64,000 bases of DNA, from contig CAMPDV010000292.1 of NCBI GenBank assembly GCA_946699065.1, positions 62,001 to 126,000 on the forward strand, in the 5' to 3' direction. The position numbers were made by a program, and so were the translations under genes. The notes below the pieces were generated by a model that did not search any database, was not told the origin of the DNA, and saw only the letters and a list, made by a program, of their open reading frames with translations. The DNA is from Loxodes magnus. Its lineage: Eukaryota; Ciliophora; Karyorelictea; Loxodida; Loxodidae. How positions within the stretch are numbered: position 1 is the first letter of the stretch; every line of letters begins with the position of its first letter. Shown piece after piece: positions 3,453 to 62,907 of the stretch.

Positions 3453-4172
3453 TAATAAAAGTATAGAAAATTATCTAAAAGGTGGATTTATTATATTTTA
3501 TATATTTAAGGATAATTATTTTATTAATATCAAGCTAGATCTTTAAACTAATTGTCTATTGTAGATATTACTAAAGGTGGTTAAAGTCCTTAGTAAGATA
3601 AAATTTTAATATGCAGAAGTTATATATTAAATATACTTCGAGAGTAAATAAAGCTGTTTTTATTTCAATATATATCTCATAATAAGGAAATACACTTTGA
3701 TTGATATCGTTATGAGTTAGTACTATGAGATCGTTAGTTGATGTGCATATTTAAATTAAACTATTAAATTTGGCTTTAAATTCTTCTTTAACTCTATTTT
3801 TTATAATTTTAAATGAAACAAGTCTAGAACAGCGTAATTACGGGTATGCCTACCCTTCTTAATTCAGATCATAGCTTGATTTTCGATTAGAACTGGCCTC
3901 TCAATAAACAACTTCCTGTTCCTAAGTAATTATAAGATCAACCAAGCTCAATTAAAAAGAATGAAGAGAAAAGCTAGAATCAGAAAGGAAGGAGAAGTAA
4001 GAAATTAGCTTGGAATTGTGAACACAAGAACAAGATACATTATGCAAAAGGAGTATGCTAAACATGCTATTTATCTTTATACTACCAAGTAAAAGCGAAA
4101 AGTGGTACTAGGTTGTGAGAAGATGTATGAATATCTAAGAATTTTAATAAATTTTATTGGCTTAGTTTTCAT
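3453..4172 (-). pseudogene. conserved family gene, copy 1 (N-terminal region)
   Basis: An ATG at 4172-4170 follows an in-frame TGA (4188-4186) and opens a ciliate-code frame starting MKTKPIKFIKILRYS. It then carries the family block: a TFRF-like start near 4106, a hydrophobic stretch with LAYSF, a basic LLRNRKLFIERP segment, and GRHTRNY...LDLFHL ending near 3811. The frame continues to a TGA at 3450-3452. In-frame TGAs interrupt the block near 3945 and at 3864-3866, so this is probably a pseudogene. The second TGA is shared with other copies. Copy 3 at 16.1 kb is nearly identical in DNA over the block and its downstream 100 bp. From about 3700 a small indel relative to copy 3 moves the best frame. 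The function is unknown; hydrophobic and basic segments suggest a membrane-associated N-terminus. Confidence 0.6.
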
Positions 4173-4189
4173 AAGCTTTTGAAATCAAA

Positions 4190-6025
4190 TTTTTTAAAGA
4201 CTAATTTTTAAATTTAGAAGTAAAGAAAACTCAAATAAACCTAAGATTTTCGACTTAATTTTAAATTTTTTAGTTGTATTATATTAATAAATTTTTAATT
4301 CACTGCACAGAAATTCATTTCCACTTCAAGCACCAAATAGAATATTTTATTTTATTAATAGCAAAAGACGCTCTAACTAACGATTTTATCTCAACTATAC
4401 ATTTTATAGCCCTAAGCTTAAAAATTAATTTTAAATATCCTTTTTATAATTATATAGTAATTTTTATCATTATACATCTCGTTATGCTTTTTACTTTTAT
4501 AGAACCTTTATGATGTTTTAGATCTAGTCCTTAGACTTACAAATAAAAAATATCTATTGAATAAATTGTTAGTGACTATATATCATTTTAATTCTAGCAA
4601 TCAAAAATAATAAGAAATATATATAAATCTCTCAATATCAATTCTCCAAAAATGTAATTAATGATAATATTCGCTTTCATATAACTGATTTTAATATCAA
4701 ACATTTATTTCTAACTTAAAGCTTAATTCTTATATATGATAATTCAAAATTAGAACTCCATAGTTGCTTTTTATCCGAAGAATTTTTATTTTATTGACTT
4801 ATCTCCACAAACTCTAAGCTCTCTTGTAATGTTAATGCCTAAAAAATTTACTATATAGATCTAAGATTCATTCATAATTAAAAAAATCAAATTCTTCCTT
4901 CCCTCCCTCTAGGATTATTTAAGATATTAAAGTTAAGAATATAATACCAAACTTATGCCATATCTAAGCTATTTTCACTTTATTAGAGCAAAACTCATTA
5001 GGATCATTGTTCTATTTAATTTAAATATACCTTAGTTTTTATTAGTTGGTTTTTCGTTAGAATCTATATAAAAAGTTTATAATTAAACTACAGAAAAAAA
5101 ATTGCACAACAATAATTTTTCAAATGATAAGATTTTAAAATTTTTCTATATCTATGATTAAATTTAAGCTTTCTAAGCTTAACAAAATCAAAGGTATTTA
5201 TTTAAGTTTTCTCAATCTTAAATATTTAAAATTTTATTATTTAGACTTAAATAAAGATATATTGATGGCTTTGGCTGTTGAAAACAAGCATGAGACTAAG
5301 TTTTGATTTAATAATTATATAATTAAATTTTGCACTTATTTACCACTAGTTTTTATTGTAGCACAAAGGCTAAATTTAAGCAAGAGTTTGAGTATTACTA
5401 ATTTTATATAATGAATATCAGAAAAATAAGAAAAATTGATTTCTTTCTTTCCATATATATCATAATTAATAGATTACTCAAAGTCAGGCTGGTTTGTTTA
5501 CACAAATAAGAAAATTCTAAAAGAAATTTGATATCTCAGAAAAATACCTTCTGATCTATTTTAGCCAACTCTTTAGTCAAATACATCTATGGTTTTTCTT
5601 TCTTTTACTCAAATAAATCATTTCATATTTAAGGAAAACTCGCAATGATTTTACCTTGTTAATTTTACCCTTAAATTAATTCAAATGATACTCAATAATG
5701 AAGAGATTTCTTTGTATAAAGCATTTAATTAAAAAAGAATCGAAATTAAAAGCTGAATTCCCTGGATTATCTAAATCAAGCTTATAAGTATATTAGAGTA
5801 TTATCTTTATAAGCTTATGATTAAAAGAATAAAATTGGAATAAGCTGAGAAAGATAATTTTATGTGCTTACAGAAGAATTTATTTAACTAAGTCAAATCT
5901 ATAAAAGGAAGCAGTTATAGATGCTTTTTATATACTTTTTTAATTTTACCTATATGCAAAAAAAGAGATCGAAGCACTATCTAAGAAATCGAATTATCCC
6001 TTTACACTGGTTTATGTACCAATTA
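4190..6025. other. AT-rich stretch, no supported gene
   Basis: Mostly A+T with no repeated block or recognised motif. A plus-strand ciliate-code frame covers about 4127-4512 (hydrophobic, Phe/Ile-rich), but it overlaps the start of copy 1 on the other strand and has no homologue within the window. Confidence 0.5.
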
Positions 6026-6211
6026 CTATCAAAGCTTTCTTAATCCTTTTGAACACAGATTTATATGAAACATTTTTCTAAAGTTTCTAGTTATCTCACG
6101 ATATAATGTTGGTAAGACAATTAAAGATATTAAGGAAAAATAGTTTGTGTGTTCATTTCGTAATAGTGAATAAGTTTTAGCTTTATAGTGTATATTAAAA
6201 ACTTTATGCAT
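6026..6211 (-). CDS. small ORF with ATG and TG A stop, unrecognised
   Basis: A 61-codon frame with an ATG at 6211-6209 and a TGA at 6028-6026, using no TAA or TAG codons. The product is basic with a short hydrophobic centre (SLISLIVLPTLY) and a basic end (NFRKMFHINLCSKGLRKL). The absence of reassigned stop codons is mildly unusual here. There is no recognisable domain, no second copy and no neighbouring gene, and it could easily be chance. Confidence 0.18.
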
Positions 6212-6851: not shown

Positions 6852-8378
6852 CTATTCTCTTTACTCTTAAAATTAATTTTAGCAACTTGATTTTCAATTA
6901 ATTTAGCTATAAAAGTTTTAAGTTTAAACTTTAACAAGCACTTATTAAAATTTTTTGATATGGAACCTTGACTTTGAGATATTATCTCTACTCTTATTTG
7001 ATACCTTTTTATCAAACAATTTTTTTAAAGATTTTTTAGAAGATTATTTCAAATCATTTTGACTCTACTTCAGCTATTTGCCAGTTTTCTTCATTATTTG
7101 AAAGATAATCTAAAAAGCAGGAAACTTTATTATCTTTAGAAAATATACAAAAAGCCAATCTCTTAATATTTTATCTCATTTGCTACTATAAAAAAACTAA
7201 AAATTTTTCTTTATCTTATTAACTATTTTTATGCTTATATAGTTAACTATTATCAACATAATTCCAGCTTGATAGTTTCCTAACTCTTAACACTTTAATA
7301 AATTTTAGCTTTATTATCTATATAATTAACCTATCACATCTATCTTGCTTCTATATATATTTCTCTTGCTTATTAAACTTTTAAAATCAAAAAATGTAAG
7401 TCAATATTTTTTATGGCAATTAGATTTATTGACTCATGCTTCAAAGGTAAGGTAAACCATCTTAGGTTTATTAATTTAAGAAAAGTAAACTTTTTTAAAG
7501 CTATTTTTACATTAGCAAGTAGATACTTTCTTAATAAACACTTCTATTTATTTATTTTCTTATAATACTCTTTCCTATCAACTTAGTTTGCTCTAGACTC
7601 TATAGTTAAGTTTATTTTAAGGTTATAATAGAAAATAGGATTTTAATGTATTATATTAATATTCCTTATTATGGAGCTAGGACTAATAAAAATTGGGGAG
7701 ACTCTTTGCTTTCTAATTTATTTTAGCTTTTAATTATATTTAACAGGGTTATATTCAAATCAACTTTCAGTTCTCTAAATAGCAAGTAGATGCTAAACTT
7801 ATTTATAGAAGAAGAAAGAAAATAAAACTAGAAAAGGAAGAAAATTGAATTAAAATAAAAGAATATAATTCTATTATACTCAGAGATTAGTTAATTTTAT
7901 AGAAGATAAGGAAATTATATCAAACTTTGAAAATATTTATTGTCACATATTAATTTTTTTGCTGTAGGTATAGATTAAAGATAAAGAAATTAATAGAACT
8001 AATAGAATAAAATAGATGCTAGCTATAATTTAATTAAATAGTGCTAAAGAAATCTATAGGACTATTTTTAAGGATATACTTAATCTTCACTTCAAGGTTA
8101 ATGCAAGTTATCAACTAAAATCAATTAGTCTCTTATTATTCTTTATTAAATTGCACAGTTTCTTCAATAGAAATGAGAAAAAGAAAGCAAGCATGGAGAT
8201 ATGCTCATAAAAAGTAGAATTATATGAAAGGGGTATATCAAATATAATAATTAAGAATTTACTACCAACTAAAGGGAAAATACAAAAATAAGATGTGAAC
8301 AATTATCTTAGAGAATTAGATCTTTTATATATAATATTAAAAAAGCCAAAACAAATCAAACTTGACATATTTAAATAA
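6852..8378. other. AT-rich stretch with one weak minus-strand ORF
   Basis: No repeated block is present. A minus-strand frame at 8111-8302 could encode a hydrophobic segment (PLVGSKFLIIIFDIPLSYNS) that looks like part of a membrane protein. It has only a TTG at its apparent start and no second copy, so I list it only as a possible fragment. Confidence 0.4.
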
Positions 8379-8424: not shown

Positions 8425-10394
8425 ATATACCTGGAAAACAAGGTGGCAAGTTAAAGTTATTCAAGATCGCATTAAATAATCTCCAAATATATAAATTTAA
8501 TTTAAATCCGCAAAAATAATTTTAGTTGCACGATTCAAAAGAGAAACTATAAGATACTAACAATTAAATTGATATAGTTGCTATATGAATTAAAAATTTT
8601 AAATAATTAATCTCCCTCTGGAAAAATCTTGTTAGGGTATAATGAAAATTATGAAGCATTTGCTTTTGATTATTATGAAAATGTAAAGGTTTAAATAATG
8701 AAATAATAAACAAGTTCTGATGCTTTTAATAAAGAGCTCCTGTCAGTTTAAATTTTTGAACTTAACTTTTGAAATTTGTTAGTAGATATTTAATAAAAAT
8801 ATATTGAAAATTTCATATGCATTATTGATATATTTATATGACCCAAGGTTTATCATTTGAAATAAAACCTTTAAAATCATATAAATTAAGTATGTTGAAG
8901 GGAATAAAATTCTTAGTTATAATAACTTAGCTAAGTTTATTCATTCTGTGGTAATTAATCTAAAAATAAAAAAGTAAATATTAGTCTCATTTCTGATGTA
9001 ATTTAGCTTTAAATATGATAAAATAACCACTCTTTGAATATTTATTGGTATGATATTTTAATAAATTTAGCATACCATACCTTTATTTAATACCAAAAGG
9101 TAGTTAAATTTATTTTAACTTAATGCTTTATAATTAAGTTAAAAAGCCCCTTAATTATATCTTCGTTTTTTCCCTCTTTTATTTTCAAACTGAATAGACC
9201 TTCTTTGAACTAATTTTAAAATAAGTTCCTAATTCTCAATTTATAACTATTTTCAACATTAAAGCTTTCCTTTTTACTAAAATTAGTTAAATAAAAAAGA
9301 ATAAAAATACATACAAAGGATATTCATATAACTAGAGCTTTAAATTAAAAATAAAGACAAATCTGCTTTTCCTAGATTAAAATCAACTCTAATGCAACAT
9401 AGTTTTCAAGTAAAACTAATTAACACTTAAATCTATGATAAACTAAAATAAAAGAACTTTTACTCAAATAATCAATTTAATTAAAGTATGCATATTTATT
9501 TATTATATCTATGTATTAAATCATACTTATATCCAATCTTATTATTTTATACAAATCCTATATTAGATATTCGTTGAAATTAAAAAAAAATTTCGTTGCT
9601 TTTACAAATATTTAAGGAAGAGCCAACCTTCTAATTAACCCTTATTATGATTAATTAATTAAAGTATATTTATGAAATTCTCTAATGCTTAGCTTTATTC
9701 TACTAATCAATTATCTTTATTTTTATCTAGAAAGTAATGGCTATTACTATAAACCTTTGCTCTATTCCACCCTTTAAGTTTTTAGAAGCTTTAAAATTAG
9801 AATATTATATATAATCTCTTTTTAGTATAATGGCTAAGAGAAGGATTAAGCTTTTAATAATTTCTTATATAACTGAAAATAGCTTATATATTTCTAATCT
9901 TTATAAATATAATAGATATCAGTTATTACTAAGAGCTAGCTTTCTATGGTTTTATTATTATTAAAGATTAAGTCATTACTAAATAATAAAAATAAGCTAG
10001 TATTAGAGAATTTCAAAACTTATCAATATTTATTGGAGAAATAAAAGATTCGCTGCATTCTAATTTTTAGATCATTATTTAATGTTTGTACATCATTTGA
10101 ACGGAAATGAAAAGGGAATAAACTGAAAAGAAAAATAAAAGAAATAAAATAAAAAGCGCCAAATATGTTTAATAGCTACTTGGCAATTATTTCATAAAAA
10201 TAATTTGCTTAAGTTTAAATAAACCAAGACGCTTTATAATTTTTATCTGCTCTCTAATCATTAAGAACTAAATAAAATTATCAAAATTAATTTAGGTGAA
10301 TTAAATGACAATATGAAATAAAATAAATTCACACTATTTAATTTTTAGTAATTAAGTCTTATATAAATAAATAAATAATTAATTAAAAAATAAA
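8425..10394. other. AT-rich stretch, nothing identified
   Basis: No repeated block, motif or convincing ORF is visible. The last 30 bp before 10395 are A/T-only and abut the 3' end of the retroelement. Confidence 0.5.
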
Positions 10395-10398
10395 TAAG

Positions 10399-10436
10399 AT
10401 TATAGAGTGCGTAGCAATTAAATGGCGCGAGGCTCT
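10399..10436 (-). repeat. retroelement 3'-terminal hairpin, copy a
   Basis: Plus-strand text GATTATAGAGTGCGTAGC ... GGCGCGAGGCTC is a degraded copy of the hairpin better preserved at 30.35 and 54.06 kb (GAGC...GCTC outer stem, CACC/GGTG inner stem). On the element's strand it is the last unit before the A/T-rich tail. Confidence 0.6.
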
Positions 10437-10446
10437 TTAAAATAAA

Positions 10447-11874: not shown

Positions 11875-11889
11875 ATTAAAAAAAAAACT

Positions 11890-11940: not shown

Positions 11941-14340
11941 GTTCATCAGAAATAAAAATAATTGAATGATTTTCTCTAATTTGAAGCTACTTCATAGATA
12001 ATATAGAGAAATGATAGAATATTCTCAAAACATATATTAAGATAGTAGGAATTTTAATTTATCTAAATTTTGTTTATATGAAAGCTTATACATTTTATTA
12101 AAGGAAACTTAATAATCAACATAGTGTGTCTACTATTATTTTAGAAATCAAGCTGCAAAAGCTTAAAAGAAAATCGAACTGGAAATAATTAATAAGCAAT
12201 ATAATTATTAAAGGAATGATTAAGGCTATCTTAATTTAGTTTGTTAGAAGATTGAATAAAGAAGTAATTTATTAAAAATAAAGCATCTCATTAAGAAGCT
12301 AATAGAAGTTGAATCTTAATCGACTAAATGATGAAATAATTAACAAAGATATATAAATCGATCTAACTAAATTAAATATCAGTATCATCTTCCACTCCAC
12401 AATGCTTTTGCAGAATAAACTCTAGAAAGCCTTTTTAATAACTTTTAATCCATAAGGCTGAACTTTATATGACTTAAATATACATATTTAATATCTTTAT
12501 ATCTATTTTGAATTAGGGGATGTATAAGCATTTTATTGCTATACAATAAATACACTTATAATGAATATCCAACTATAAGAATGGTTATTAAAATTTAATG
12601 TTTAACTATATAATAGGAAATATTCCTGATGAATACTTTAAGTTTAGTTAAGTATCTTATTTATAATTATTAGTTAAGCAAAACAATCATAAGTAAGTTA
12701 AACTTAAAAAACTAATAAATGAAGGTATTTAAAAGTAAAAGCCATATAAAATTAATTTTCGTCAAATCATTTTCTATAAAAAATGAAACAAAATAAATCT
12801 TTGTATTTGAAGCCTAGAAATATGAATGATTAGATAATAAAATTTCGCTTAAATATAAAATTAATTGTATATATCTAGGCAATTTACAGAAGGAAGTTTA
12901 AGATAGAATTAAAAATTGAAATTAATTTAAAAAACAAATGTTTTCTTTTTTCTATTTTTAAGGTCAAGCTGAAAAAATGTAAGTGAAAAACGATAGAACT
13001 CTAATTAAATAGGGTATAAAAATTATAGAATGTGGCTAAATTATTTGAATAGCTTCTATTTTCGTACTTTAAAGCTCAAAATTTGAAAATCATTTATATA
13101 TCTATATACTCTTCCATTGTTAAAGCATTTCTATCTTAACTTAATAAAAGTCTCTTTATTTTACTATATCAATCAATCTATTTTCATACATATTTTTGTA
13201 ACATTTTAATTAGCAATATGATATATGGGTATATATATAAGTATAAGCAAAGATTATAATAAACTTTAAATTTAATATTTAAAGATACTGTAAATAAGCA
13301 AAGTGATAAGACAGTTAAATAGCTGCTTAATATTTATAAGCAGTTGTATTAAATAAAAATTATAAAATAACTAGTTAATTATCATAAGATTAAGCTTTTA
13401 CATTTATTTAAGAATTAAATTTATAACTTTAAGTCTAGTTATAAAATAATTCTTTGATAAGTAGGTTAAAATAATTACTCATAAACTGGAAAATAAAGAT
13501 AGTAACAGAAAAACTGGTTTATTATATAAGGATATTATATATAAAAGTGCGATCGTAGAAAGCTAATAAAGATTGAAATTTATCTAATAACTTAAAGATA
13601 TTTAAAATAAAAAAAAGAATAAATACTAGGTTTATATAGTTATTTTATATTTGCACTTAGATTAAAAATTGGAATAGATTTAACTATTTTTAAAATTAAA
13701 AAATGTAAAATATTTAATTTAAAATTGGATTCACCTATAATTTATAGGCTTATGCAATTTAAATCTGATGAAGTCTAATTCTCAATTTTCATATTCCTTT
13801 TGCTTAAAATCTCATATCCAATAATTTTAAATGAGGATTATAGGAGAAATGAAAATAGAGTTATTAATCAATAACAAAAGAAGTACTTTAAGCTTGATAT
13901 TTTGGGTGCTTTTAAACTATAACGAGAATCAAAAAATTTAAGTATTAAATGGTAATAAGAGTAGTTCTTCATTCTTAATATAAGATTTGAAAAGAAAAAA
14001 AATTAATATTATCATAAATAAATGTGTTGAGTTTAGTTTCGAACTGAATTTTCAAGTTTGTCTTGTGGATGCTGAAAATGTATTATAAATATTTATTTGT
14101 AAAAGACCGATCATTTAAATATTAATTTAAAGGATAGAGTAAAAGAAATAATTTTTTATGAGCTTCAATGTAAAATAATCATATATTAAATTATAAATAA
14201 ATGTAAAATAGGCAATATGAAATATCTACTAAAAATGTTTAATATATCTTAATATTTATTCGATTTTAATAGCTTCTGACTAGCTTAAAAACAAGAAAAT
14301 AATTTAAAAAATAAGCAGCATCAATCTTTACTCATAATTT
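11941..14340. other. AT-rich stretch, nothing identified
   Basis: No repeat block or convincing ORF. Plus-strand open frames occur but are composed mainly of Lys/Asn/Ile/Gln codons, as expected by chance. Confidence 0.45.
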
Positions 14341-14766
14341 TATACTTTCTTTCGCTTTCACTTGGTAGTACAAAGATAAATAACACGTTTAACATACTCC
14401 TTTTGCGTAATGTATCTTGTTCTTGTGCTCACAATTCCAAGCTAACTTCTTACCTCTTCTTCCTTTCTGGATCTAATTAGTTTTTTCGTCCTTTTTTATT
14501 GGAACTACTTTAATTGATAGTTAAACAGGAATAGGAAGCTATTTAATGAATGGCCAGCCTTAATCGAACATCAAGTTTTGGTTTGAATTTAAAAGACTAG
14601 GCATGCCCGTAATTACGCTGTCTTAGACTTATTTCATTTTAAATTATAATAGATTGAAATAAACTAGAATTTATACCAAATTAAATTAAACAAGTTTATT
14701 GTTTAATACTCATAGAAGTTTAACAATTCAGCAACTTACAATATTTATAGAGCTAATTAATTTTGA
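14341..14766 (+). pseudogene. conserved family gene, copy 2
   Basis: A plus-strand copy of the family block. In the ciliate code it reads RFHLVVQRQITRLTYSF, a hydrophobic stretch (MYLVLVLTIPSQLL), NRNRKLFNEWPALIEHQ, then RHARNYAVLDLFHF at about 14595-14640. It continues as KLQQIEINQNLYQIKLNK to a TGA at 14764-14766. In-frame TGAs occur before the NRNRK segment and at 14584-14586, the latter matching the interrupted column of copies 1, 3, 9 and 10. The closest relative is copy 10 (48.8 kb), which shares the block and the adjacent TATAAACTAGAATTTATAC-like flank. It faces copy 3 across 1.5 kb in convergent orientation. Function unknown. Confidence 0.6.
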
Positions 14767-15712: not shown

Positions 15713-16430
15713 TCAATCTATCAATATTTCTAGGTAAATAAAGTCATTATTTAATAAAATAAAGCTAAATTATTAAGAGTATTTATAGAATATATTTGTA
15801 TATAATAACTAATTTTAACTGTATTATGACTATTAAATTTTAATTGGTTTGCTTAGATTTTGCTTTTTGTTAAATTTAGGAGTTTATATGGCTTATTAAA
15901 ATAACTAACTAAAATAAAGGATAAATATAAAGAAATTTTGTCTTAATATAAGTATAAGAGATAAATAAAGTTTGTCTTTCATTTCGTTATTTATCTAATA
16001 TAGCAAATCTTTTAAGGTTTTGGATTTTGGTATATCTATGAGTAAGTACTGCGGGATTGCTAGTCGATATGCATATTTAAATTAAACTATTAAATTTGGC
16101 TTTAAATTCTTCTTTAACTCTATTTTTTATAATTTTAAATGAAACAAGTCTAAAGCAACGTAATTACGGGCATGCCTACCCTTCTTAATTCAGATCATAT
16201 CTTGATTTTCGATCAGAACTGGCCTCTCGATAAACAGCTTCCTGTTCCTAAGTAATTATCAATTCAACCAATCCCAATTAAAAAGAATGAAGAGAAAAAT
16301 TAGGCTCAAAAAGGAAGAAGAAATAAGAAACTAGCTTGGAATTGTGAACACAAGAACAAGATACATTATGCGAAAGGAGTATGCTAAACATGCTATCTAT
16401 CTTTATATTACCAAGTAAAAGCTAAAAGTG
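15713..16430 (-). pseudogene. conserved family gene, copy 3, longest clean reading frame
   Basis: The minus-strand block begins near 16430. After in-frame TGAs at 16259-16261 and 16190-16192 the frame stays open for 159 codons to a TGA at 15713-15715. It reads IKKGRHARNYVALDLFHLKL, then a Lys-rich segment, NLIVQFKYAYRLAIPQYLL, IDIPKSKTLKDLLYQINNEM, a hydrophobic segment (LSLILILRQNFFIFILYF) and a Gln/Asn-rich end. This copy best shows what follows the block: a basic linker, then probable helices and a possible membrane segment. Copy 13 shows a similar FKYGYYFSIPLII at the corresponding place, which supports the frame. The DNA is nearly identical to copy 1 over about 400 bp. Function unknown. 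Confidence 0.62.
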
Positions 16431-19400
16431 GCATAAGTTTATGAGTATAATCGTGCATCTTAAGAAATTGAATAACTGTATTTATCTATTTTTGTCATAT
16501 ATTTTAAATAAAGCATCTAAGAATCTTAGTTATACCTAAACAATAAAAAATAAAATAAACCTGATTCAATCTTTAATTTTAAATTATTACTAATTTTTAA
16601 TTTTTCCTTTTAAATAATTTAATTAAATTTTATTAAATAAGCAAGTGAATCAAAAGTATAATCATAAATTTACACTATTTTGCTATATATTATAAAGTCA
16701 GTTGAACATCAACAAATTAAAGCTTTATATAATGAAATTTAAACTTAACTTTATTTATATTTTCCTTACTATTCATTTTATTTATTATCTATTACTTATT
16801 CAAGCTATTAATTACCATGCAAGCATTTTAAGGTTTAATAAATAACTTAAATAAAGAGATCTAATTAAGAAAGTTGCTTATTTAACATATACAATATAAG
16901 AGCAAATGTATATATATTTGTAATTACCATCTCTACTATAAAATTAGAAATGATACTACTCTCTTTTAATATTTATAATAAGGTTCACAATGGTTAGTTA
17001 TATTCTATATAATCATACTTATTAATATACTATTTCTTTTTAAAAGCTTTAGTTCATTCTTTAAGGATTTTAGCTTTATTCTTAGTATTATATTCAATTA
17101 TTGAAATTTTGCTATTAATATGCTTTTCATTAATAACCTAGGAATTTTATAGGACCACCCCCAAACGAGTGCAAGAGAACTAAGATTCTCCCTTTAGCTA
17201 GATTGGATGCTAAATTTCTATAATAAAACTGGAAAAAGGAAATTAGTTGATTTATTTATCTAGCATGCCAAAATATTGATAAAGAGATAGATATACTGAA
17301 ATATAATAATAGGTAAGCCTCTTAAATTAGGGGTTTAGGTTGGTAGTAATAATAAGGCTTAATTAAAGAAATATTTTATCAATTTATCAAGTACTAAGAT
17401 TCAAATCTTTCCATTAAAACTTTCTTAATTCAATAGAGAAAAGAAATAAATAGATGTGATATGTCTATAAAAGAAATGCTTGAGAGCTATTATTTTATTA
17501 ACTCCATTCTAAAATATTTTAGGTTCTAGAGATAAAATTATATCATAATAAATATAATAAGCAATCCCATAATTACTCTTTATTTATTAATAGATAAATC
17601 ATTATTATACCTTTATTTAATATTTATTTTCTTTATTTGGTAGACTGGAAACTATAATGAGAGAAATTTACTTTTCAACTTATCAAACGAAAGGAGTTTC
17701 TACTCTGATATTTTATGGATGGTATCATTTTAATTATTTTACAACCTGAAGTTGATTTTTTAACAAATGAATAATGAAAAATTATTTTAGGTATTTTATT
17801 AAATCAATTTCCATGCTTATCAATTAAACCTTATTACCTAGATTAGTAATAAATATAAGCTTATGAGTTAATTTTAAAATAGACTCTAAGAAGCTAAAAA
17901 TTATCTTAGAACACGTAAATATTTATAAGCCTTCAATTTATTTTATTTATTAGTTGCTAAATAAAATTTATGGTAGGCTATATTGATTATTTTGTATAAC
18001 TAATGACAGGATATATCATATAATGAAGTTTAGCTATTTTGCTTATATATCAACTATGAATATTATCTAAATTAGAAAAGATTTTAACTCTTAAAAATAA
18101 CAATTTCTTAAAGATTTATTAGTAAATAAAACTTAGATTTGATGCAGCTTTTTAATCAAGTTTAATCTAGAAGTATTTACTCCTATCACTATAAATATTT
18201 AATGTCTAAATTTAGAAAAGCATTCAATTATCTTTTTATTTTTATTTTCCTTTCTACTATTTATATCAAACTATATATAAATACATCTGCTATTTCTTCA
18301 GTTATTTTAAAATTATATAATACGTAATAGTTAAGGTATATGAGAGTTTACTAGGAAATAACTAATTTTAACTAATAATGATGATTAAACTTTTATAGAT
18401 ATGAACTATGGTAGTTTTATAATTTTAAATAATACTTTAATGTACTAGCACTCATATCTTAAGGTATTATATTATTAATTCATTATGCTAACAAAGATTT
18501 CTAACTAATTCCTTTATAAGCAAAAAAAGTTTGAATTCCTTTAGTTAGCGATACAGTAGAATGAAAGGTAAAGAAAAGATTAATTATAGAAATAAAAAGA
18601 AGAATTAAAGCATCATATAAATGAAGGATGCTTAAAATAGCTTGATGCAAATATCGAAATTACTCTTTTATATATAAAATCTGAAGTTAAAGCTTTTGAT
18701 AATTAGTATTATAAGAGATTGTCGTTTTATAATTTTGAGTTAGTTGAATAGATAATCCTATAATAGCAATGATTTAAAGAGTTTAAATAATTTTTTTAAA
18801 GTTTATTAATTTATAAAAATTATTGATTATAACTTAATCAGCTAAATAGCATGGCAAATGTAATTTTTAAAAGTAGATTTTGCTTTGTCAATAAAAATTC
18901 AGCCAAGCATGTCATATGAAAAGATTAAAGTTGCTTGATTATTGAGCTTAAAATATAAAAAAGCTATTAAATAAAATTTATTTTTAGTAAATTATTTTTC
19001 ACTAAAAATTTTGCAGACAATATAAATAACTAAATTCCATTAGCATTTCACGAGGAAAAAAATTAAAAAATTTTAAATATTTTTAAACAAAAAAATAAAG
19101 TTTTTCTAAATAAATTAGCTATTGTAAATTATATAAATTTTAGCATGACTATAATTGTTTAAATTATTATTCTCTTATAAATTTTAATTAAAAATATATA
19201 TCCTTATAAATTTACTTTTAAGAAATTTAATAGCATTTCATTTCTGTTAAAACAAGTTCCCTTAATCTTAAAATCTAACTTTGCTTATTCTAATTTTAGC
19301 CAAGCTTTATAATTAAGAATATAAAATTTTTTAGACTTTTAGAAATTTTTATAGAGCAAATTGTTTTAAATCTTTCTTATAAATTTTACATCTTTAATTT

Positions 19401-25544: not shown

Positions 25545-26077
25545 TATTAAATAAAAAGGAAGCATAAACTTTTGTCTTGTTAAATAGTTATTATACATTA
25601 TGGAAACTTAGTTAGTTTTACTTTAGAGAAAAATTTAAGAATAATTAATTTCTTATTTTTCTAGAAATTAAGTTTTGCTTTGTTCAAATCTTTAAAATAA
25701 ACTTAAAATAAACGTCAACAAACTTTACTCACACTTTCATATTTTCGCTTTCTCTTGATAGTAAACTGACAAATAGCATGTTTGACATACTCCTTTCGCA
25801 TAATGTGTTTTGTTTGTGTGTTGACATTTCCAAGCTTACTTTTTACATCTCTTTCTTTTCTACTTAGAATAGAAAGTATTATCTTTTTTTAATAAATCTA
25901 GTTCGTTTGATAACTAATAAGGAATGGGAAGTAATTTTGAGAGAGGTCAGTTGGGATGGAACTGTAAATTAGATTAGACAAGACTGGGCATGCCTACAAT
26001 GACATTGTGGATTTCTTTCATTGAAATTATAATTAAAAGGGATAAGCTAGAATTTATGCTTTAAATTCAATATGGCA
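25545..26077 (+). repeat. left inverted arm of unit 1
   Basis: The match to the right arm starts at TATTAAATAAAAAGGAAGC and ends at TTCAATATGGCA. It contains family copy 4. Confidence 0.92.
25737..26023 (+). pseudogene. conserved family gene, copy 4
   Basis: The block reads SYFRFLLIV, then IACLTYSFRIM, a hydrophobic stretch (FVCVLTFPSLLF), RNGKQF, ERSVGMELQIRLDKTGHA and NDIVDFFH in the ciliate code. The TGH motif is intact but TGAs interrupt the frame after LLIV, before ERS (where other copies have AGA) and after FFH. It is a decayed member, with the interior ORF of unit 1 downstream on the same strand. Upstream, the arm reads as a Lys/Gln-rich leader without a certain start. Confidence 0.55.
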
Positions 26078-29274: not shown

Positions 29275-29807
29275 TGCCATATTGAATTTAAAGCATAAAT
29301 TCTAGCTTATCCCTTTTAATTATAATTTCAATGAAAGAAATCCACAATGTCATTGTAGGCATGCCCAGTCTTGTCTAATCTAATTTACAGTTCCATCCCA
29401 ACTGACCTCTCTCAAAATTACTTCCCATTCCTTATTAGTTATCAAACGAACTAGATTTATTAAAAAAAGATAATACTTTCTATTCTAAGTAGAAAAGAAA
29501 GAGATGTAAAAAGTAAGCTTGGAAATGTCAACACACAAACAAAACACATTATGCGAAAGGAGTATGTCAAACATGCTATTTGTCAGTTTACTATCAAGAG
29601 AAAGCGAAAATATGAAAGTGTGAGTAAAGTTTGTTGACGTTTATTTTAAGTTTATTTTAAAGATTTGAACAAAGCAAAACTTAATTTCTAGAAAAATAAG
29701 AAATTAATTATTCTTAAATTTTTCTCTAAAGTAAAACTAACTAAGTTTCCATAATGTATAATAACTATTTAACAAGACAAAAGTTTATGCTTCCTTTTTA
29801 TTTAATA
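29275..29807 (-). repeat. right inverted arm of unit 1
   Basis: Reverse complement of the left arm over the full 533 bp. It contains family copy 5. Confidence 0.92.
29329..29615 (-). pseudogene. conserved family gene, copy 5
   Basis: Inverted duplicate of copy 4 with the same TGAs, so it carries no independent coding information. It reads inward, towards the 3' end of the interior ORF. Confidence 0.55.
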
Positions 29808-32898: not shown

Positions 32899-33155
32899 TA
32901 AATGAAATTAGTTTAAAACAACGTAATTATTGGCCTGTTCAGCTCTCTAATCTGGCACTAGCTTACTCTTTCATACTAATTGACCACTCTCTATAATACT
33001 TCTTATTCCTATCTAGTTATTTACTAAAATAGAAAAATTAATAGAAAATAAAAAAAGATATACTTGAAAGTTTTAATACTAGAGCAAGGCATATTTAGAA
33101 AGGAGTATGTAAAAAATACGATTTGATTGTTATTACTAAGATAAAGCGAAAAAAG
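32899..33155 (-). pseudogene. conserved family gene, copy 6, divergent
   Basis: Recognisable from AAATGAAATTAG, ACAACGTAATTA, the ACCACTCTCTATAATACTTC segment and AGAAAGGAGTATG in the right order and spacing. It is diverged and lacks the GGCATGCC core (here GGCCTG). The frame is broken, so it is a relic only. Confidence 0.5.
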
Positions 33156-34854
33156 CATGAAAGCTTAAGTAAATAAATTGATGATGCTATATATCTTAAT
33201 TTATTTTTAAGTGATTTGCTTACACCAAAAATAGTTTTTAAGATAATTTATTAATATATTTTTAGCTAATTTTATACAAAAATACACAAGTTTTTTCCTT
33301 TATAAAAAAAGTTAATTTTATCAAAGTCTTAAAATTACCATTGATTTAGAATCCAAGAGAATTTCTGTATTAAATATAAAATTCTAATTTTAAACTAAGA
33401 AAACAAAAAAATATCATTCTTTCAAGCTAATTTTCCTTCAGATCTAAGTTCAAAGCATTATAACTTTATGGATATTAAAAGCAAATCTTAAATAAATCCA
33501 TTTTAATTATTTTTTGCATGTTTAAGATCATATAGCTACATTAAATTTATCTCACAATTAAGTTTTTTTATTTCTTAATACTCTATTTTTGTAAATCTTA
33601 ATAAACAAAGCATCATAAAACTAAATTTTTCATTTATTTGTTTCAAATAAAATTAAAAACCTTTAGCGACATTCTCAATTAGTTGCTACTAGTATAAAAT
33701 TAAAGAATATCTAAGATTAATTTAAACTTAGCCTCTAAATTTAAAAACAAATCTATGAGGTGATATAACAAAAATATAAATAAATGCATAAATTTAATTA
33801 AATAGTTATAGAATTTAGACCTAAACTAAGTAATGATATATATCATTTTTTATTTTTTATGTTGCTGATTAAGATAAAAGACTTCATATATCTTACTCTA
33901 ATCTTTTATCTATTGCTTAGTTATTTTTTTATTTTGAGATATGAAATTTAATTATAAGATAATAAATTAAAAGAAAACTAGAAGAAAACTTAAAAAGCAT
34001 TAGATAAAATTACAATTTATGAAATGTAAAAGAAGTTTATAATTAAAATAAAGGCTAAAATAAAATAATTAATAATCAATGGAAAAATATCATGCAACAA
34101 AGTTTCCTACTTGCTAATAACTTTTAATCTAGAAAGAAAATTATTGATAAGTAAATTTAGTGAAAAAGATCTTCCGAAGTATTTTTTATGGAGCAGAGAT
34201 TAGAAAACATCAGCAAATTTTGATGCATGACTATGAAGTGTAAAATTGGATTTAAGTTGAAAATTAATTCTTAAAAGAAAATTGAAGATTATATGGAACG
34301 AAGAATCATTTGTGATAAGCTAAAAATAATCAAGTATAATTAAAGATATAGTTCTAGTATAGTTCTCAAGTTATTTAATTAAAAGAGAACAAAACAATAA
34401 CTAAAAAAGGATTGGTTTATAAATTAATTTAAAAATAATAATTTTTTAATTAAGAATATACGAAAATTAATTTTTTTAAAAATATTTTTTTATTAAAAAT
34501 GAAATAATGCAAAAGCTTTTCAAACTATCATAGCGAATAGATGGAAAAAATAAAATGAATACTAAAATTTAAATAATATTGTAAAGAAGAGATAAAAAAA
34601 TTTATTTTATATTTTTTGACAATATAATCTTGGGTTGCTTAATAAAGAATCCTAATTTAACTTTATTTAAGAAACCTTAAATGCAACTTTATTTTAATTT
34701 TCTTAATGAAATATTTTAAACTTATAAATCTTTAAAATTAGAAGAAGCTATTAACTATAATTATTTATATCTATTTTTTATATAATTATGTATCTTATAG
34801 TAAATATATCTTTATTAATTTTTAAATAATAAATTTAAAATTTACTAGGATAAT
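33156..34854. other. AT-rich stretch, nothing identified
   Basis: No repeats or supported ORFs seen. Confidence 0.45.
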
Positions 34855-35253
34855 ATTTCAGCTAAGTAAATTAAAATTCTTAAAAATAATCAACTTTTTT
34901 CTTTAATCTCACTCATACTTTCGCTTTCTCGGAGTAATATATCGATAAATAACATGTTTAACATACTCCTTTCGCATAGTGCATCTTATCATTGTGTTAA
35001 CATTTCCAAGCTAACTTCTTACTTTTTTTTCCTTTTTTCGTTTAACTAGATTTGTTATTCTCTTTCATTGGAGCTTCTTAGTTAGTTAGTTATTTGGGAA
35101 GAGGAAGTTCTTTAGAGAGAGGTCAATTGGAATCGAAAAGCAAGCTAGCATTAGGTTATAGAAGACTGGGCATGCCTGTAATTACGTAGTTTATTAGTTT
35201 CATTTATTTTTATAATTTAAATAAATAGAATTTTTAATTTAAGTTTAAATAAG
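34855..35253 (+). repeat. left inverted arm of unit 2
   Basis: The match starts at ATTTCAGCT and ends at AAGTTTAAATAAG. It contains copy 7. Confidence 0.9.
34915..35253 (+). pseudogene. conserved family gene, copy 7, uninterrupted block
   Basis: The best preserved block: open throughout the ciliate-code frame with no TGA. In order it reads YFRFLGVIYRQITCLTYSF, HLIIVLTFPSQLLTFFSFF, RFVILFHWSFLVSQLFGK, RKFFRERSIGIEKQASIRL, QKTGHACNYVVYQFHLFLQF. Upstream in frame lies SKLKFLKIINFFLQSHS, resembling the N-terminal IKFIK segment of copy 1. It defines the column where other copies have TGA: here AGG (Arg) before LQKTGH. The intact frame suggests it is younger or closer to a functional progenitor, but no full gene is present. 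Two hydrophobic segments then a basic region suggest a membrane-anchored N-terminus. Confidence 0.62.
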
Positions 35254-37875: not shown

Positions 37876-38274
37876 CTTATTTAAACTTAAATTAAAAATT
37901 CTATTTATTTAAATTATAAAAATAAATGAAACTAATAAACTACGTAATTACAGGCATGCCCAGTCTTCTATAACCTAATGCTACCTTGCTTTTCGATTCC
38001 AATTGACCTCTCTCTAAAGAACTTCCTCTTCCCAAATAACTATCTAACTAAGAAGCTCCAATGAAAGAGAATAACAAATCTAGTTAAACGAAAAAAGGAA
38101 AAAAAAATAAGAAGTTAGCTTGGAAATGTTAACACAATGATAAGACGCACTATGCGAAAGGAGTATGTTAAACATGTTATTTATCGATATATTACTCCGA
38201 GAAAGCGAAAGTATGAGTGAGATTAAAGAAAAAAGTTGATTATTTTTAAGAATTTTAATTTACTCAGCTGAAAT
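37876..38274 (-). repeat. right inverted arm of unit 2
   Basis: Reverse complement of the left arm over 399 bp. It contains copy 8. Confidence 0.9.
37924..38214 (-). pseudogene. conserved family gene, copy 8
   Basis: Inverted duplicate of copy 7 with the same uninterrupted frame and only a few base differences (for example GGTAGC for GCTAGC in the core). It reads inward. Confidence 0.58.
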
Positions 38275-46824: not shown

Positions 46825-47165
46825 AAATGAAACTAAGCAACGTAATTACAGGCATGCCTACCCTTCTTAATTCAGATCATACCTTAATTTTAGATCAAAG
46901 CTAGCCTCTCGATAAAAAACTTCCCGTTCCTAAATAACTATCAATTCAACCAACAAAAATTAAAAAGAAGGAAGAGAAAATCTAGAATCAGAAAGAAAGA
47001 AATAAGTAAGAAGTTAGCTTGGAATTGTGAACAAAAAACAAGATATATTACGCAAAAGGAGTATGCTAAACATATTATTTATCTTTGTACTATCAAGTGA
47101 ATGCAAAAAGAGTATGAGATCGTGAGTCAAATGTATATTAAAGAAATTTAATAAATTTTATTTGT
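46825..47165 (-). pseudogene. conserved family gene, copy 9
   Basis: Same subfamily as copies 1 and 3. The block reads QLFRNGKFFIERLALIQNQ, then MI, TGA, IKKGRHACNYVAQFHL. The TGA before IKKG is the same as in copies 1 and 3, and a second TGA precedes QLFRN as in copies 2, 3 and 10. Upstream (to about 47,165) KQIKFIKFLQ matches the KPIKFIKILR start of copy 1, showing that conservation extends into the N-terminus. The first part of the block is frameshifted. It is divergent with copy 10, 1.65 kb away. Confidence 0.58.
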
Positions 47166-48763
47166 TTAGCTATTAAAAAAAGTATTATATATTTAAGTTT
47201 GTAAATATGATAAATTATAGATACATTGATGGTCTTGATTTATTATTTTTATCTGACCAATGAAATTTTTTCTTTAAATCAAGTGATTTATATATCTCAA
47301 ATTATTAATAACTAGATAACGAAAGAAATAAAAAATTAAGAACGTTAATCCAACCCAAAAAGTTTAAGCATAATCTAAATATTTATTTATTTATTTTTAT
47401 TCCTTTATTTATTATACTTATCCACATAAAAACTAAACAATATTAATTATCTATATCACCTATTGTTGAGACATATAAATCCTCTTTTGTATTAAAGATA
47501 GTTTTATTATGCTATTACAATCAATCTATATAATTTATTATTTTCATTAAGTTTATTAGTAAAATGATATATAGATATGTTTATCATTGCTTGATAAGAT
47601 TTAATATTCATTTTAAATTGAACATAAAAAAGCTTATACCAATAAATTCAGTGTTCGAAGCAGTTATAAGCTTTATTTTAATTTTTAGAAAAACTGTAAT
47701 AATTATAAAATTATAAAATAAGTGTATCTAACTACTACCATATAAACTTTTATGATTTTATAAATTATATCAATAATTATAAAAATATTATTATAAACTA
47801 AATTATAAAATAAAATCTCTATATAAGGCTAACTATTTACTCAAAAATAAAATATTAAAAGCATAAAGTAAAAATGTATTTGATATTAGAACTTAAGATA
47901 TTAATGTAATATTAGAATATCAAAAAGATAAAAACATTTATAAAATAAATAATAATTAAATAATAAATATTTAGGTTGGAATATTTATTTTTATATTTAA
48001 TTTAAATCATAGAACTGCTACCATCTTAATTGCATAAATTAGAAGAAAGATAGAAATTAAAGTTAATAAATACAGATTTAATAAATTGTATGCTTATATA
48101 ATTATATAAAGGCATTATATAAGGCTTAAATATCATTAATATAAACTAATTCTTAAATTTCTAAATTAGTTAAGTTGCTTGCTGATTCAAAAGCTTTATC
48201 TTTTTATAATTTCTTCTTTAGATAAATAAAATGAATCTCTATAAGCAATAAGAGAAGGTATTAAAAATAAATTAAGAAGTGTATTCAGAATATTTATATA
48301 TGAATTGAAATATGTATATAGACTTTAATCATAGTAGATTAAATATTTAATGATAGTAGTATTAGTTTATTATATCAATATTAGATTTAAAATAAATAAA
48401 TTTATAAATATACTTAGATTTATATTATTTTATTTAATAAGCAAGCTAGTCTTCTAAAGGTTTAAAAAGGTTAAAGTTATTTTAAAAATGTATCAGAGAA
48501 AATAAATAAAAATTAAGTTAAAGGACAAATTAAAAGAAATTTAAAAAATAGCTTCATTGAAAAGATAATAAATTATAATTATAAAATAAGTTAAAGTAAA
48601 ATTTTGATGTATATTTTAAAATAATTAATAAATAGCTAGCAACTTTAAGCCTCTATAAAATGTGCTGAATATATAAATATATATGTATTTATCTTTTTAT
48701 ATTTCATGAACTTCTAAAATAAATAAATAATTAATAAACAACATCAAGCTTTACTCATATTAT
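47166..48763. other. AT-rich spacer between divergent copies 9 and 10
   Basis: The spacer separates two oppositely oriented family starts. No conserved promoter-like motif is visible. Confidence 0.4.
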
Positions 48764-49318
48764 CATACTTTCTTTTGCTTTCACTTGGTAATACAAAGAT
48801 AAATAGCACGTTTGACATACTCCTTTTGCATAATGTATCTTGTTTTTGTGCTAACAATTCCATGCTAACTTCTTCTATCTCTTTCCTTTTTGCATCTTAT
48901 TAGGTTTTTCATTCTTTTTCATTGGAACTTCTTAGATTGATAGTTAGATTGGAACAGGAAGTTGCTTAATGAGTGGCCAATTCCCATCAAAAGTCAAATC
49001 TGGACTTGAACTTAGAAGGCTGGGCATGCCCGTAATTATTGTGTCTTAGACTTGTTTCATTTAAAATTATAATTGTTTGATATAAACTAGAATTTATACT
49101 AAATTAAATTAAACAAACTTAAAGTTTAATATCAATAGAAGTTATTAGTTTAGCTATCTATATTATTTATAAAATCATATTTATTTAATAAGGCACTGCA
49201 TTATAATCATTCTTATTATTTAATCCATAAGTAACTTAACTCTAAATTAGTCATTTTAATACTATATATCCTTATTTTAATAGAGGCTTTGATAAAAAAA
49301 GCAAAATCATTTATTTGA
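48764..49318 (+). pseudogene. conserved family gene, copy 10
   Basis: The block reads HLVIQRQIARLTYSF, a hydrophobic stretch (MYLVFVLTIPCQLLL), RFFILFHWNFLD, TGA (48,938-48,940), QLDWNRKLLNEWPIPIKSQ, then TGA (49,007-49,009), TQKAGHARNYCVLDLFHLKL. After the second TGA the frame stays open for 102 codons to a TGA at 49,316-49,318, with DINQNLYQIKLNKLKV, a hydrophobic LSILFIKSYLF, and LILYILILIEAL. Both TGAs fall in the same columns as in copy 2, its closest relative. The order of hydrophobic, basic, GHARNY and a second hydrophobic region matches copy 3. Confidence 0.62.
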
Positions 49319-52072: not shown

Positions 52073-52312
52073 CATGTTATTTATTTATAAGCATAATATA
52101 CCTTGTTCTTATACTCAATGTGCACGCTAATTTTTTTTCATCTTCTTTATTTCTTTCTTTCTAAACATAAATTTCTTGTTTTCTTTAAGAAAATACTTGG
52201 TTTGATAACTTGATAAGAATAGCAAGTAATTTATGGAGCGGGTAATTAGTTTATAAATTTAAGTTAGAGTTAAGGAGATTAGACATGGGCATAGTTTGAT
52301 AGTCTAAGAGTT
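52073..52312 (+). pseudogene. conserved family gene, copy 11, strongly degraded
   Basis: Order and spacing match the family: CATGTTATTTATTTATAAGC, CCTTGTTCTTATACTC, GCACGCTAATTTT, the GATAAGAATAGCAAGTAATT segment (RNRKFF region) and GACATGGGCAT in place of GGGCATGCC. The frame is broken throughout. Confidence 0.45.
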
Positions 52313-54045
52313 GTTAAATAACGATAATTTAGATAGAATGATGAATTTATATAAACTTAATTTAAGCATAATATCATATATAATTATTATTGATATATTT
52401 TTAATTTGTTTCTAAGTTTAGTAGTAATTATGTAGATAGATATTTCTCTTTTATCTATCTTTTATATTTAAAGAGTGCTACTATCTAATTATAAACATTT
52501 AGGGAGTGTTATTTAGTTTCTATTTAATTAATAAGCTTGAACATCTAATTTAGTAGTACATTTCAATTTTTTATTTATTAACTTTAATTAAGTTATTTTA
52601 ATTAAAATTATATAAAAATAGCATCAGAGCCTTTTAAAGCAATCTAAAAACTAGGAAAAAATAAATGTTTTATTATATATCTTAGTATTTTGTTGTAAGC
52701 ATCGCACTGAAATTAGATATTAATTATTTAATATGCGTAATGAAGTAACCTATGAAATTTACAAGACTGTAAGATTATTATTTATTTTAGAAATTAAATA
52801 GATTTTCAACAAGGCTTATGTACATAATTAACTAAATAGATATAATTATATTAAAAGTCTAATATGCATATATCACTGAGAATATTCAACTTTTCTCTAT
52901 AAAGTTAAAATGTATAAAATATTAAATATTTGAGCTTTTTTACTTTATGAAGTTTAAATAAGTTATTCTTAACATGATTTATCATTCTCACTTACTATAA
53001 AGCTAGCAATATAAATTTAATGATAACAAATCTTTAAATCTTTTCACCTTAAGTTTGAACTACATTATCATCTTTGACAAACAAAATTATTTGATGTTCA
53101 CATCATTGAAGGAATAGTTAATTTTTAATATTTAATAGAAATTAACTAATTAGAGTTTATAAGAAAGAGAAACTCCTATAGTATCATTCAGAATATGTAT
53201 AATAAATAAAATTTTAAAGCTAATTATTTAAAAACAAATGATCACTACAAATTATTTAGCAAATTATTTAAAGTTAAGGATAAATATAAATAAATTGATA
53301 GTAGAAATGAATTATAACTTTATTAAATTTATTTAAGCGCAAAATGATTGAAAAATATTTAATTATTAATTACCACTTAAAAAGGAAACTATAATAAAAG
53401 AAAATTTTGCCTGCTAGTCTATAGATATTTAGTACTTTAAAATTAAAAATGTTTTGAAATATTTAGCTTTTATTAAACTTTTAAATATATCAAATAGATT
53501 TTAATTTTAATTTTTATATTTTTAAATTAAGCTTTTTATTTAAACTCAAGGTATTCTTTTAATTAATTAAATAAAATATATATGAATAAAGGATAAGCAT
53601 GCTTAAGTTTAGAATTTTTAGATATGTAAATTCTGTATTATTTAATCAAGTTTTTAATTATTCTTTTAATTTAATCAGCTAATTTAAAATTAAATCAAAT
53701 CTTTTTCTCCAAAAACCAGATAATTTGATCTATGAATTTACTAACTTAAAAAACTTTTTTTTATATTTATGAGATCAGTATAATTTAATCTATAAAATTA
53801 GACTTTTAGTTTAGGAATTATTAATAAAAATAAAAATAAGCAAAAGATAAATTTATAAAGGATGTATACTTTTAAATTTAATTATTAAAAATCACAATAT
53901 TTCTAGAAATATAATTTATTTTAGAACTATCTTATTTATTTTTTAATCTAATACAAAAATAAATTTTTAATTTATTAGTAATAATTGCAAAATTTTCATA
54001 GTTATTGAAATAATTTTATGAATTTCATAATTTATATAATAAATA
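52313..54045. other. AT-rich stretch, nothing identified
   Basis: No repeats or ORFs with support. Confidence 0.45.
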
Positions 54046-58899: not shown

Positions 58900-59107
58900 A
58901 CATAAAATCGCGTTTAGCTTACTACTGATCTTTTATTTCTGCTCCTAATAAATTAAGAATCAAATAGACTTAATAAACACAGATATAATAACTGAAAAAA
59001 ATTAAAAGAGAAGCTAATAATTGTGAACAAAGAGTAGATGAATATACGGAAGGAGAATGTTAAGCAAGCTGTCCGATTTTTATATTACCAAGTAAAAACG
59101 AAAATAA
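58900..59107 (-). pseudogene. conserved family gene, copy 12, partial
   Basis: The minus strand begins YFRFYLVIQKSDSLLNILLP and IHLLFVHNYQLLF, matching the first half of the block (GGAAGGAGAATGTTAAGCAAG on the plus strand). The second half is degraded and lacks the GGCATGCC core. A TGA lies near the middle. Confidence 0.48.
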
Positions 59108-61337: not shown

Positions 61338-61952
61338 ATGAAAAAACAATCTTCTACCGTAATAATCACAGAATAAGATAACTATTCACTAAAAAAAGAC
61401 TTAAATAATCATCTACCTTAGTTTAGTATTATTATGCCAAATAGCGTTGATACTTCTATAAAGGAATAACAAATAAAATCATCAAACTTAGAAAACTCAA
61501 AATAAATATTAGTGAAGAATTATAAATTCTTTCTGGAAAAAAAGAATGTACTAGAAGGAAATTAAAAAGCATATAAGAATCATAAGTTCTATATTTTAAG
61601 ATAGAAAATTAAGGTAATTTTTTAGCTTTATGTATTACTCACATACATACCCTTTTATATAATAATTAGCAAATGTAAATATCTAAATTTAGATTTTGAC
61701 CATGATATATATTATCAGATTATCTATACCTTTCTATTGAAGAGTATTTCAGATGTAAAAATTAGGCTATTTCATATGGTTCTTTCTTATTTGTTTATAA
61801 AGTTCATGCTAAAATACTAGAGGTTTAATTCAGTGCGAGAAACCTCTTTAGTTATCATTCATTAAAATGCTGATGTAAAGTAAGGAGCTGAATACAATAG
61901 AGAAATTTCATTATGTAAGAATAAAAATGGTAATCAATACACTGATCAATGA
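61338..61952 (+). CDS. ATG-started 204-codon ORF, strand uncertain
   Basis: An ATG at 61,338 preceded by AAAA opens a ciliate-code frame to a TGA at 61,950-61,952. The first 90 residues look like a real hydrophilic N-terminus: MKKQSSTVIITEQDNYSLKK, DTSIKEQQIKSSNLENSKQ, FFLEKKNVLEGNQKAYKN. After about 61,620 it becomes Leu/Ile/Phe/Tyr-rich (LYVLLTYIPFYIIISK), which could be membrane helices or the antisense of the minus-strand family gene, whose frames there look better (EPYEIAQFLHLKYSSIERYR). Past the TGA another plus frame (61,949 on) gives DPKGINFNIPQLEENQ and KGDCTGCKIKS. One or both strands may code; I cannot decide. Confidence 0.3.
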
Positions 61953-62349
61953 AATTAAGTGAGGGAACTTAAAGAGATAGCTTATTTAAGAAATACTTCT
62001 AAGTATTTGCTTTTAAGATAGACCCAAAAGGAATAAACTTTAATATTCCATAATTAGAAGAAAATTAAATTAAATTAAAATTTATCTATTTTAATAAAGG
62101 TGACTGTACTGGATGTAAAATAAAATCATTAATATCAAATATTTCTTTAAATAACTAAACTTACGATCTTGAGCCTTATGTTGCCAAAACTATTAAGAAA
62201 ATACACAGATACCATCTTACATGATTTAGTTCAATAATTCATATGAAATCTATAAAGATAACTAGCTAAAATAATACATTTTGTTATATAAACAATAAAG
62301 ATTTAATATTTAATACAATTCAAATATTTTACGTTAAAGAATCCAATCA

Positions 62350-62907
62350 AGATAAATACCATTTAACCTCAAATTTTAGATATTCCTTAATTAATTTATC
62401 AGAAAGTTAAACTTCTTCAAACTTCAAAATCAAATTGCATCTATATAAAGCTGCTCTACTGATGGCTGAAAATAACTGATGATTCATGCGGTATAAATTT
62501 TAATGTCTATCATTTTAAAGAATAATTAGTGGTATAGAGAAGTAGTAGCCATATTTAAAATTACCTATATAAACTCCTAATTTCCTTCATTTTTATAAAA
62601 TCTAATGAAGCAAGTCTAAAACTCTATCTTTGCGGGTATGCCCAGTCTACTCAATTCTAGTTTGAAATTCGATATCGACTGACCAATTTATTAAAAACTT
62701 CCTGTTCCTAAAGAGATTTCGCATCTGGTCTAAGTAGAAAATTCTGAAGGCTTGGGGTAGAATGGAAAGAAGCTTAAGAAATAAGCTTGGAAGTGTATTC
62801 ACAAGTACAAGAAACATTACGCGAAAGGAGTATGCTAAGAATGCTATATACGATTTTACTATCACATGAGAGCGAAAATAAGAAGAAGTGCAGTTGTTTG
62901 ATATCAA
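62350..62907 (-). pseudogene. conserved family gene, copy 13 with downstream region
   Basis: A minus-strand frame open over 62,907-62,587 carries the block: SSYFRSHVIVKSYIAFLAYSF, a hydrophobic stretch (MFLVLVNTLPSLFLKLL), RNLFRNRKFLINW, FQTRIEQTGHTRKDRVLDLLH. A TGA at 62,587-62,589 is followed in the same frame by GVYIGNFKYGYYFSIPLII, RHQNLYRMNHQLFSAIS, LILKFEEVQLSDKLIKEYL and a TGA at 62,347-62,349. The FKYGYYFSIP segment aligns with FKYAYRLAIP of copy 3. The apparent start at 62,907 is a TTG, so the true start is probably further upstream. Diverged in DNA but similar in protein, it is the best evidence that the family was under coding selection. Confidence 0.58.

Follow-up and report, generated by a model that had tools for sequence, protein, structure and literature searches.

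We identified an amplified gene family in a 64,000-nt stretch of the genome of the karyorelict ciliate Loxodes magnus (contig CAMPDV010000292.1, here C292, positions 62001-126000 of the forward strand; the window) that is clustered, is under purifying selection, and is predicted to encode a small protein with a single zinc module in genes where TGA most likely stands both for tryptophan and for stop. We put the probability of this reading, which is drawn from sequence comparison, at roughly 85%. A search of the window with an nhmmer DNA profile made from nine copies returned 14 places at E < 1e-4, and 13 of these 14 also reached E 1e-3 when 256 kb of the contig were searched, in good agreement with a preliminary description of this DNA that had counted 13 copies of a dispersed repeat on both strands. 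Self-BLAST of the window likewise placed the block on both strands. Ten of the 14 places scored at least 200 bits and the other four are degenerate (Table 1). Nine of the ten strong copies have an open frame; c8, the tenth, is decayed, as are the four low-scoring places. Each of the nine open frames contains four to seven standard stop codons, and the family is thus mostly hidden to the standard genetic code, as had been claimed. Two pairs of neighboring copies lie in inverted repeats found by self-BLAST: c4 and c5 in arms of 544 nt that are 99.6% identical, and c6 and c7 in arms of 405 nt that are 98.3% identical. The flanks of the c4/c5 and c6/c7 pairs have no match to each other.

The open frames encode proteins of 94-101 amino acids with conserved ends: an N-terminal segment MKxxx..ITGMPSLL..xxLxFDxNWPLxKxLPxPxQL, a variable basic linker, and a C-terminal module KKxAWxCxHxxKxHYAKGVCQxCYLSxYYxxKAK. 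As judged from the aligned copies, these frames are under purifying selection. The tests used seven of the nine open window copies, c5 and c7 being omitted as near-duplicates. The pooled ratio of nonsynonymous to synonymous differences (pN/pS) was 0.38 in the true frame as compared to 0.59-1.43 in the other five frames, and column-shuffled alignments gave a mean of 0.80 and a minimum of 0.56 in the sense frame, with 0 of 500 shuffles as low as 0.38. Third codon positions varied most in 20 of the 21 copy pairs, the exception being c4-c11. For the copies at 34.9, 48.8 and 62.6 kb, where the preliminary description had proposed to calculate dN/dS, the ratio of nonsynonymous to synonymous substitution rates, the Nei-Gojobori method yielded 0.365 for c6-c9 and 0.212 for c6-c11; c9-c11 was saturated at dS. 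These values bear out the earlier statement that the block is a protein-coding family, visible once TAA and TAG are read as glutamine. The protein motifs that had been quoted for it exist as strings, but they read the true frame in antisense and hence belong to the wrong strand; YFRF and LTYSF were located there by program, and TGHARNY and LDLFHF were matched to the alignment by eye only. The antisense register has a pN/pS of 0.756, and the suggestion of a membrane protein falls away because the motifs on which it was built are antisense. Overall the preliminary interpretation is partly supported, and the case illustrates that unaided reading can spot a real gene family yet take the antisense strand.

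The copies are clustered within the assembly (705,730,643 bp, 7,843 contigs). The 40 scored matches (of 67 candidates) from a genome-wide DNA search all fall on three contigs: C292 (n = 17), C187 (n = 16), and C399 (n = 7). In the first 256 kb of the 385.7 kb of C292 we found 45 places on both strands at E ≤ 1e-3, between 48 and 252 kb and spaced about one per 4.6 kb, with no copies at that threshold in 1-48 kb; such counts are either minimum values or take in remnants, and the 45 places comprise copies as well as weak remnants. The array contains a palindrome of 19.7 kb (C292 133,944-153,601; 97.1% identical), and among the 60 longest matches there are further segmental duplicates of 6-8 kb, whose identity is 92-93% in three cases and 84% in the other two; three of the five are inverted. 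Most simply, the array grows by inverted and palindromic segmental duplication, the coding sequence of old copies is kept by purifying selection while their AT-rich flanks diverge past recognition, and close inverted pairs would be either recent duplicates or copies homogenized through occasional gene conversion. The GC content of the nine window coding sequences is 33.4%, and that of the remainder 19.6%. According to PMC11441545, the macronuclear, or somatic, assembly of L. magnus is 706 Mbp with GC contents of 33.5% in coding sequences and 18.6% in 3' untranslated regions, and its title and abstract report that extensive DNA elimination is not seen in the species. The present assembly matches that published somatic one in size, composition, and code, so the idea of a germline-amplified gene finds no support, and the term has no special meaning here because extensive DNA elimination has not been detected in this species.

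A protein profile search, also proposed in the preliminary description, revealed that the window proteins belong to a large, unnamed, and apparently ciliate family. The first search returned 15 relatives, and a second, with 12 of these 15 included, returned 395 homologs at E ≤ 0.001. Among the 120 matches listed, the named source organisms are Moneuplotes crassus, Blepharisma stoltei, and Stentor coeruleus; the remainder consists mostly of environmental sequences. A third protein search, with the two-module eukaryotic transcript P0101 as query, gave 22 matches. In an alignment of 60 rows, C69, H71, C82, and C85 of the module (numbering of c9) are invariant in 7/7 window rows and 53/53 homologs; W28 is tryptophan in 31 of the 53. 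The module's other histidine, the second, is conserved in 30 of these 53 homologs and is for this reason probably not a ligand. By regular expression, 99 of 125 homologs contain two modules, and 35 of the 125 carry the N-terminal motif MxSLL...WPxxxxLP, with WP present in 27 of those 35; the window copies carry this motif and so fall in the motif-bearing subset of the family. No match above chance was obtained for the window protein in Pfam, NCBIfam, or the PDB sequences, where all rows were below curated cut-offs or at E > 0.02, and the family members tested had no match in Pfam or NCBIfam. Scans of viral and genome contigs with alignment A2 gave 45 and 23 pattern matches, respectively, with no relative confirmed among them, and phage DNA gave no match. 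We found no description of the family in the open-access literature searched, including the main texts of PMC11441545 and PMC6935857. One homolog, P0004, from a contig of 874,944 bp, has tryptophan at several of the family cysteine sites, presumably as if TGA meaning cysteine, as in a Euplotes-type code, had been translated as tryptophan.

In the family at large, tandem modules joined by GRxKxAW are the pattern; in the window copies that were aligned, module 1 is absent together with its cysteine and histidine residues. The two-module proteins of the heterotrichs Blepharisma stoltei (P0026, P0045, P0060, P0090) and Stentor coeruleus (P0063, P0067) share with the window copies an N-terminal (M/I)xS(L/I)L...WPxxxxLP and the module CxHxxRxHYAKGxCQxCYL; they have two modules and are 131-157 amino acids long, as against 94-101 for the window proteins. 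Two-module relatives are also present in the same genome. The two-module homolog P0018 gave 150 scored matches (of 726 candidates) on many contigs, including clusters of 20 on C173 and 12 on C1109. We observed further arrays of P0018 matches on C173, C1109, C1195, C541, C677, and C598, in which some copies have identical match scores. All 12 of the translated same-genome loci (L009-L020, of which L017-L019 are near-identical to each other) contain the N-terminal motif and both modules. These paralogs have GMPSLL...WPxxxxLPxPF and the second module in common with the window copies, and 5 of the 12 have TGA at the same tryptophan sites; they differ in having two modules and in being spread over many contigs with clusters of their own. 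Because two-module paralogs with the N-terminal motif reside in the same genome, the one-module type of the window is most simply taken as a derived branch that would have lost the first module.

The use of codons in the open frames follows a consistent pattern. Glutamine at Q83, present in 52 of the 53 aligned homologs, is encoded by TAA in six of the nine window copies, and it is on TAA that the glutamine reading at this conserved site rests. The preliminary description had recommended translation with NCBI code 6; this code is insufficient by itself, since in five of the nine open frames of the window the W28 codon is TGA and must be read as tryptophan as well. We examined 65 places on the three contigs (15 of the 16 listed matches on C187 and five of the seven on C399), of which 41 have an open frame: 24/45 on C292, 14/15 on C187, and 3/5 on C399. 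Here "open" denotes passage of a regular-expression filter that demands the zinc motif, which cannot accept a copy with TGA in place of a cysteine codon and scores copies cut by the end of a slice as broken. All 19 internal TGAs of the 41 open copies occur at two conserved tryptophan sites, W28 (n = 16) and W67 (n = 3). On a tree of 36 distinct coding sequences, built without the W28 and W67 columns, parsimony requires four switches between TGG and TGA at W28. On a midpoint-rooted protein tree of seven window and 22 homologous rows, which has several weak branches and flagged long ones, TGA is found in the copies that diverge most, and those with TGG group together in a clade that branches later. 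Downstream of the TGA, c4, c6, and c11 together have a pN/pS of 0.43, with 0 of 1000 shuffles as low. In the 12 two-module paralogs, eight of the nine internal TGAs are found at the same two tryptophan sites. At the other end of the gene, all nine open window copies have a terminal TGA one to seven codons past the conserved Ala-Lys, and neither TAA nor TAG intervenes (each frame was taken to end at the first TGA downstream of the module); the internal TGA of the window copies is positioned 70-73 codons upstream of the terminal one. Most likely TGA carries both meanings within single genes, tryptophan many codons before the frame ends and stop where it ends. PMC11441545 describes the karyorelict code (NCBI table 27) as one in which TAA and TAG encode glutamine, TGA encodes tryptophan or stop, and coding TGAs lie well upstream of the terminal one. 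The window copies agree with that account, with no difference seen, and provide an internal confirmation of it. Since close paralogs use either TGG or TGA for W28 and W67, the family would constitute a natural experiment on an ambiguous stop/sense code, in which read-through at TGA copies could be measured against matched TGG controls.

Some results weigh against this reading, and they bear mainly on whether TGA might always be a stop, in which case the TGA copies would be pseudogenes and their constraint a relic of active master genes. Decayed copies are numerous, as 21 of the 45 places on C292 fail the open-frame filter, and in two cases such copies show TGA at cysteine codons. The ninth internal TGA of the paralogs, in the first module of L015, is located where the other loci (CQHYFRKHY) have tyrosine; it could be a Tyr-to-Trp change or the mark of a broken copy, and with it TGA extends past tryptophan sites in the wider family. 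Downstream of the TGA the c4-c11 pair alone, one of three pairwise tests, is non-significant (66 of 1000 shuffles reached a value as low). Between c6 and c7, all differences in the coding parts are nonsynonymous. The confinement of internal TGAs in open copies to the two tryptophan sites, its recurrence in the two-module paralogs, the persistence of sequence constraint beyond the TGA, and the position of TGA copies outside the TGG clade on the protein tree all argue for the dual meaning, and we regard an exclusive stop function as very improbable. Less credible still is an overlapping gene on the strand that had been read initially. Three copies (c6, c7, and c11) are free of TGA in the antisense register; TGA occurs there in the other six of the nine, and the pN/pS of that register falls within the range of shuffled alignments.

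The repeat had also been ascribed to an undescribed mobile element, of which the block would be the conserved part, for example a terminal inverted repeat that includes a gene, with the inverted pairs as the element ends. The two near-identical inverted arm pairs, 2.6-3.2 kb apart, and the presence of copies on both strands are features that such an element would have. By self-BLAST, homology in the window barely extends past the gene. Between the interiors of the two young pairs, shared sequence is limited to brief AT-rich matches (45 nt at best, E 1e-5), of a kind that also arises between unrelated AT-rich stretches of the window, and no target-site duplication or common terminus was seen when the boundaries were inspected by eye. 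Pfam scans of all six frames of window positions 1-15, 15-29.4, and 54-64 kb and of two of the six frames of 29.4-43.8 kb identified neither a transposase nor a reverse transcriptase domain, nor any other gene family, and the sole rows obtained were two below the cut-offs. The restriction of the 40 scored genome matches (of 67 candidates) to three of 7,843 contigs is likewise at odds with a mobile element. We consider this explanation very unlikely, and the notion of an undescribed element is left without support.

Under the reading of a selected gene family, we infer zinc binding by C69, H71, C82, and C85 because of the conserved Cys/His pattern. An AlphaFold2 model of the window protein has a mean pLDDT (per-residue confidence) of 75.7 and a pTM (confidence in the overall fold) of 0.37; residues 61-100 are predicted at 89-97 and residues 41-60 at about 49, and a helix is placed directly after C82. 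The model of a homolog reached 79.1 with a pTM of 0.45. The fold comparisons speak against the zinc assignment to a degree: Foldseek with the window-protein model gave no matches, so that no known zinc fold is backed, and with the homolog model gave one row at E 9.9, a ribosomal chain, which was not used. VIA-align returned nothing usable. A missing fold match is weak evidence. As a working guess, which we hold tentatively and at somewhat less than even odds, the protein could be an adaptor in which a short docking peptide presents the predicted zinc module to a nucleic acid or protein partner, because a basic protein with one such module, a conserved hydrophobic peptide, conserved ends, and a variable linker fits this picture. 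It is also conceivable, though very unlikely, that the arrays represent a fast-turnover ampliconic locus that expands through palindromes, is homogenized by gene conversion, and encodes a large repertoire of small factors able to bind particular sequences or chromatin. Vertebrate KRAB zinc-finger clusters follow a comparable logic. If this were true, ampliconic binding factors could recognize or silence repeats in Loxodes, whose many long interspersed nuclear elements stay in the somatic nucleus.

Table 1. Copies of the repeat in the window (positions of the window; aa, amino acids).
Feature	Position	Strand	Remarks
open copy c1	3813..4118	+	101 aa, TGG at W28
degenerate remnant	8175..8280	+	Cys ligands gone
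open copy c2	14332..14637	-	101 aa, TGG at W28
open copy c3	16139..16444	+	101 aa, TGG at W28
open copy c4	25737..26021	-	94 aa, in-frame TGA at W28; inside inverted repeat arm 25534-26077
open copy c5	29331..29615	+	protein identical to c4, TGA at W28; inverted repeat arm 29275-29818
degenerate copy	32902..33159	+	broken frame, Cys ligands gone
open copy c6	34913..35203	-	96 aa, TGA at W28; inverted repeat arm 34852-35256
open copy c7	37926..38216	+	96 aa, TGA at W28; inverted repeat arm 37873-38277
decayed copy c8	46829..47119	+	broken frame, TAG as W28 codon, C85 gone
open copy c9	48755..49060	-	101 aa, TGG at W28; reference for residue numbering
degenerate copy	52091..52314	-	found with nhmmer profile
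degenerate copy	58908..59106	+	found with nhmmer profile
open copy c11	62605..62901	+	98 aa, TGA at W28; most divergent among open copies

The window has no Rfam match and no tRNA identified by ARAGORN. A second short repeat, GC-rich, hairpin-like, and about 45-75 bp long, occurs at 10372-10446, 11879-11940, 30310-30374, 32474-32551, and 54030-54107. By eye its reverse complement resembles the 5' half of a tRNA, and the repeat is perhaps a short interspersed nuclear element, with no match by ARAGORN or Rfam. A 38-bp tandem repeat and an imperfect palindrome (86.7% by BLAST) are found at 54115-54239 and 32411-32468. Positions 10952-11212 are occupied by a (TTTCTT) array of 43.5 units with 98% matches, adjoined by a GC-rich island (11.2-12.2 kb); the minus strand of this island appears, by eye, to encode a coiled-coil-like protein. 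Outside the window, positions 1-13391 of C292 (L021, L022) are filled by tandemly repeated units of about 133 bp that are about 97% identical.

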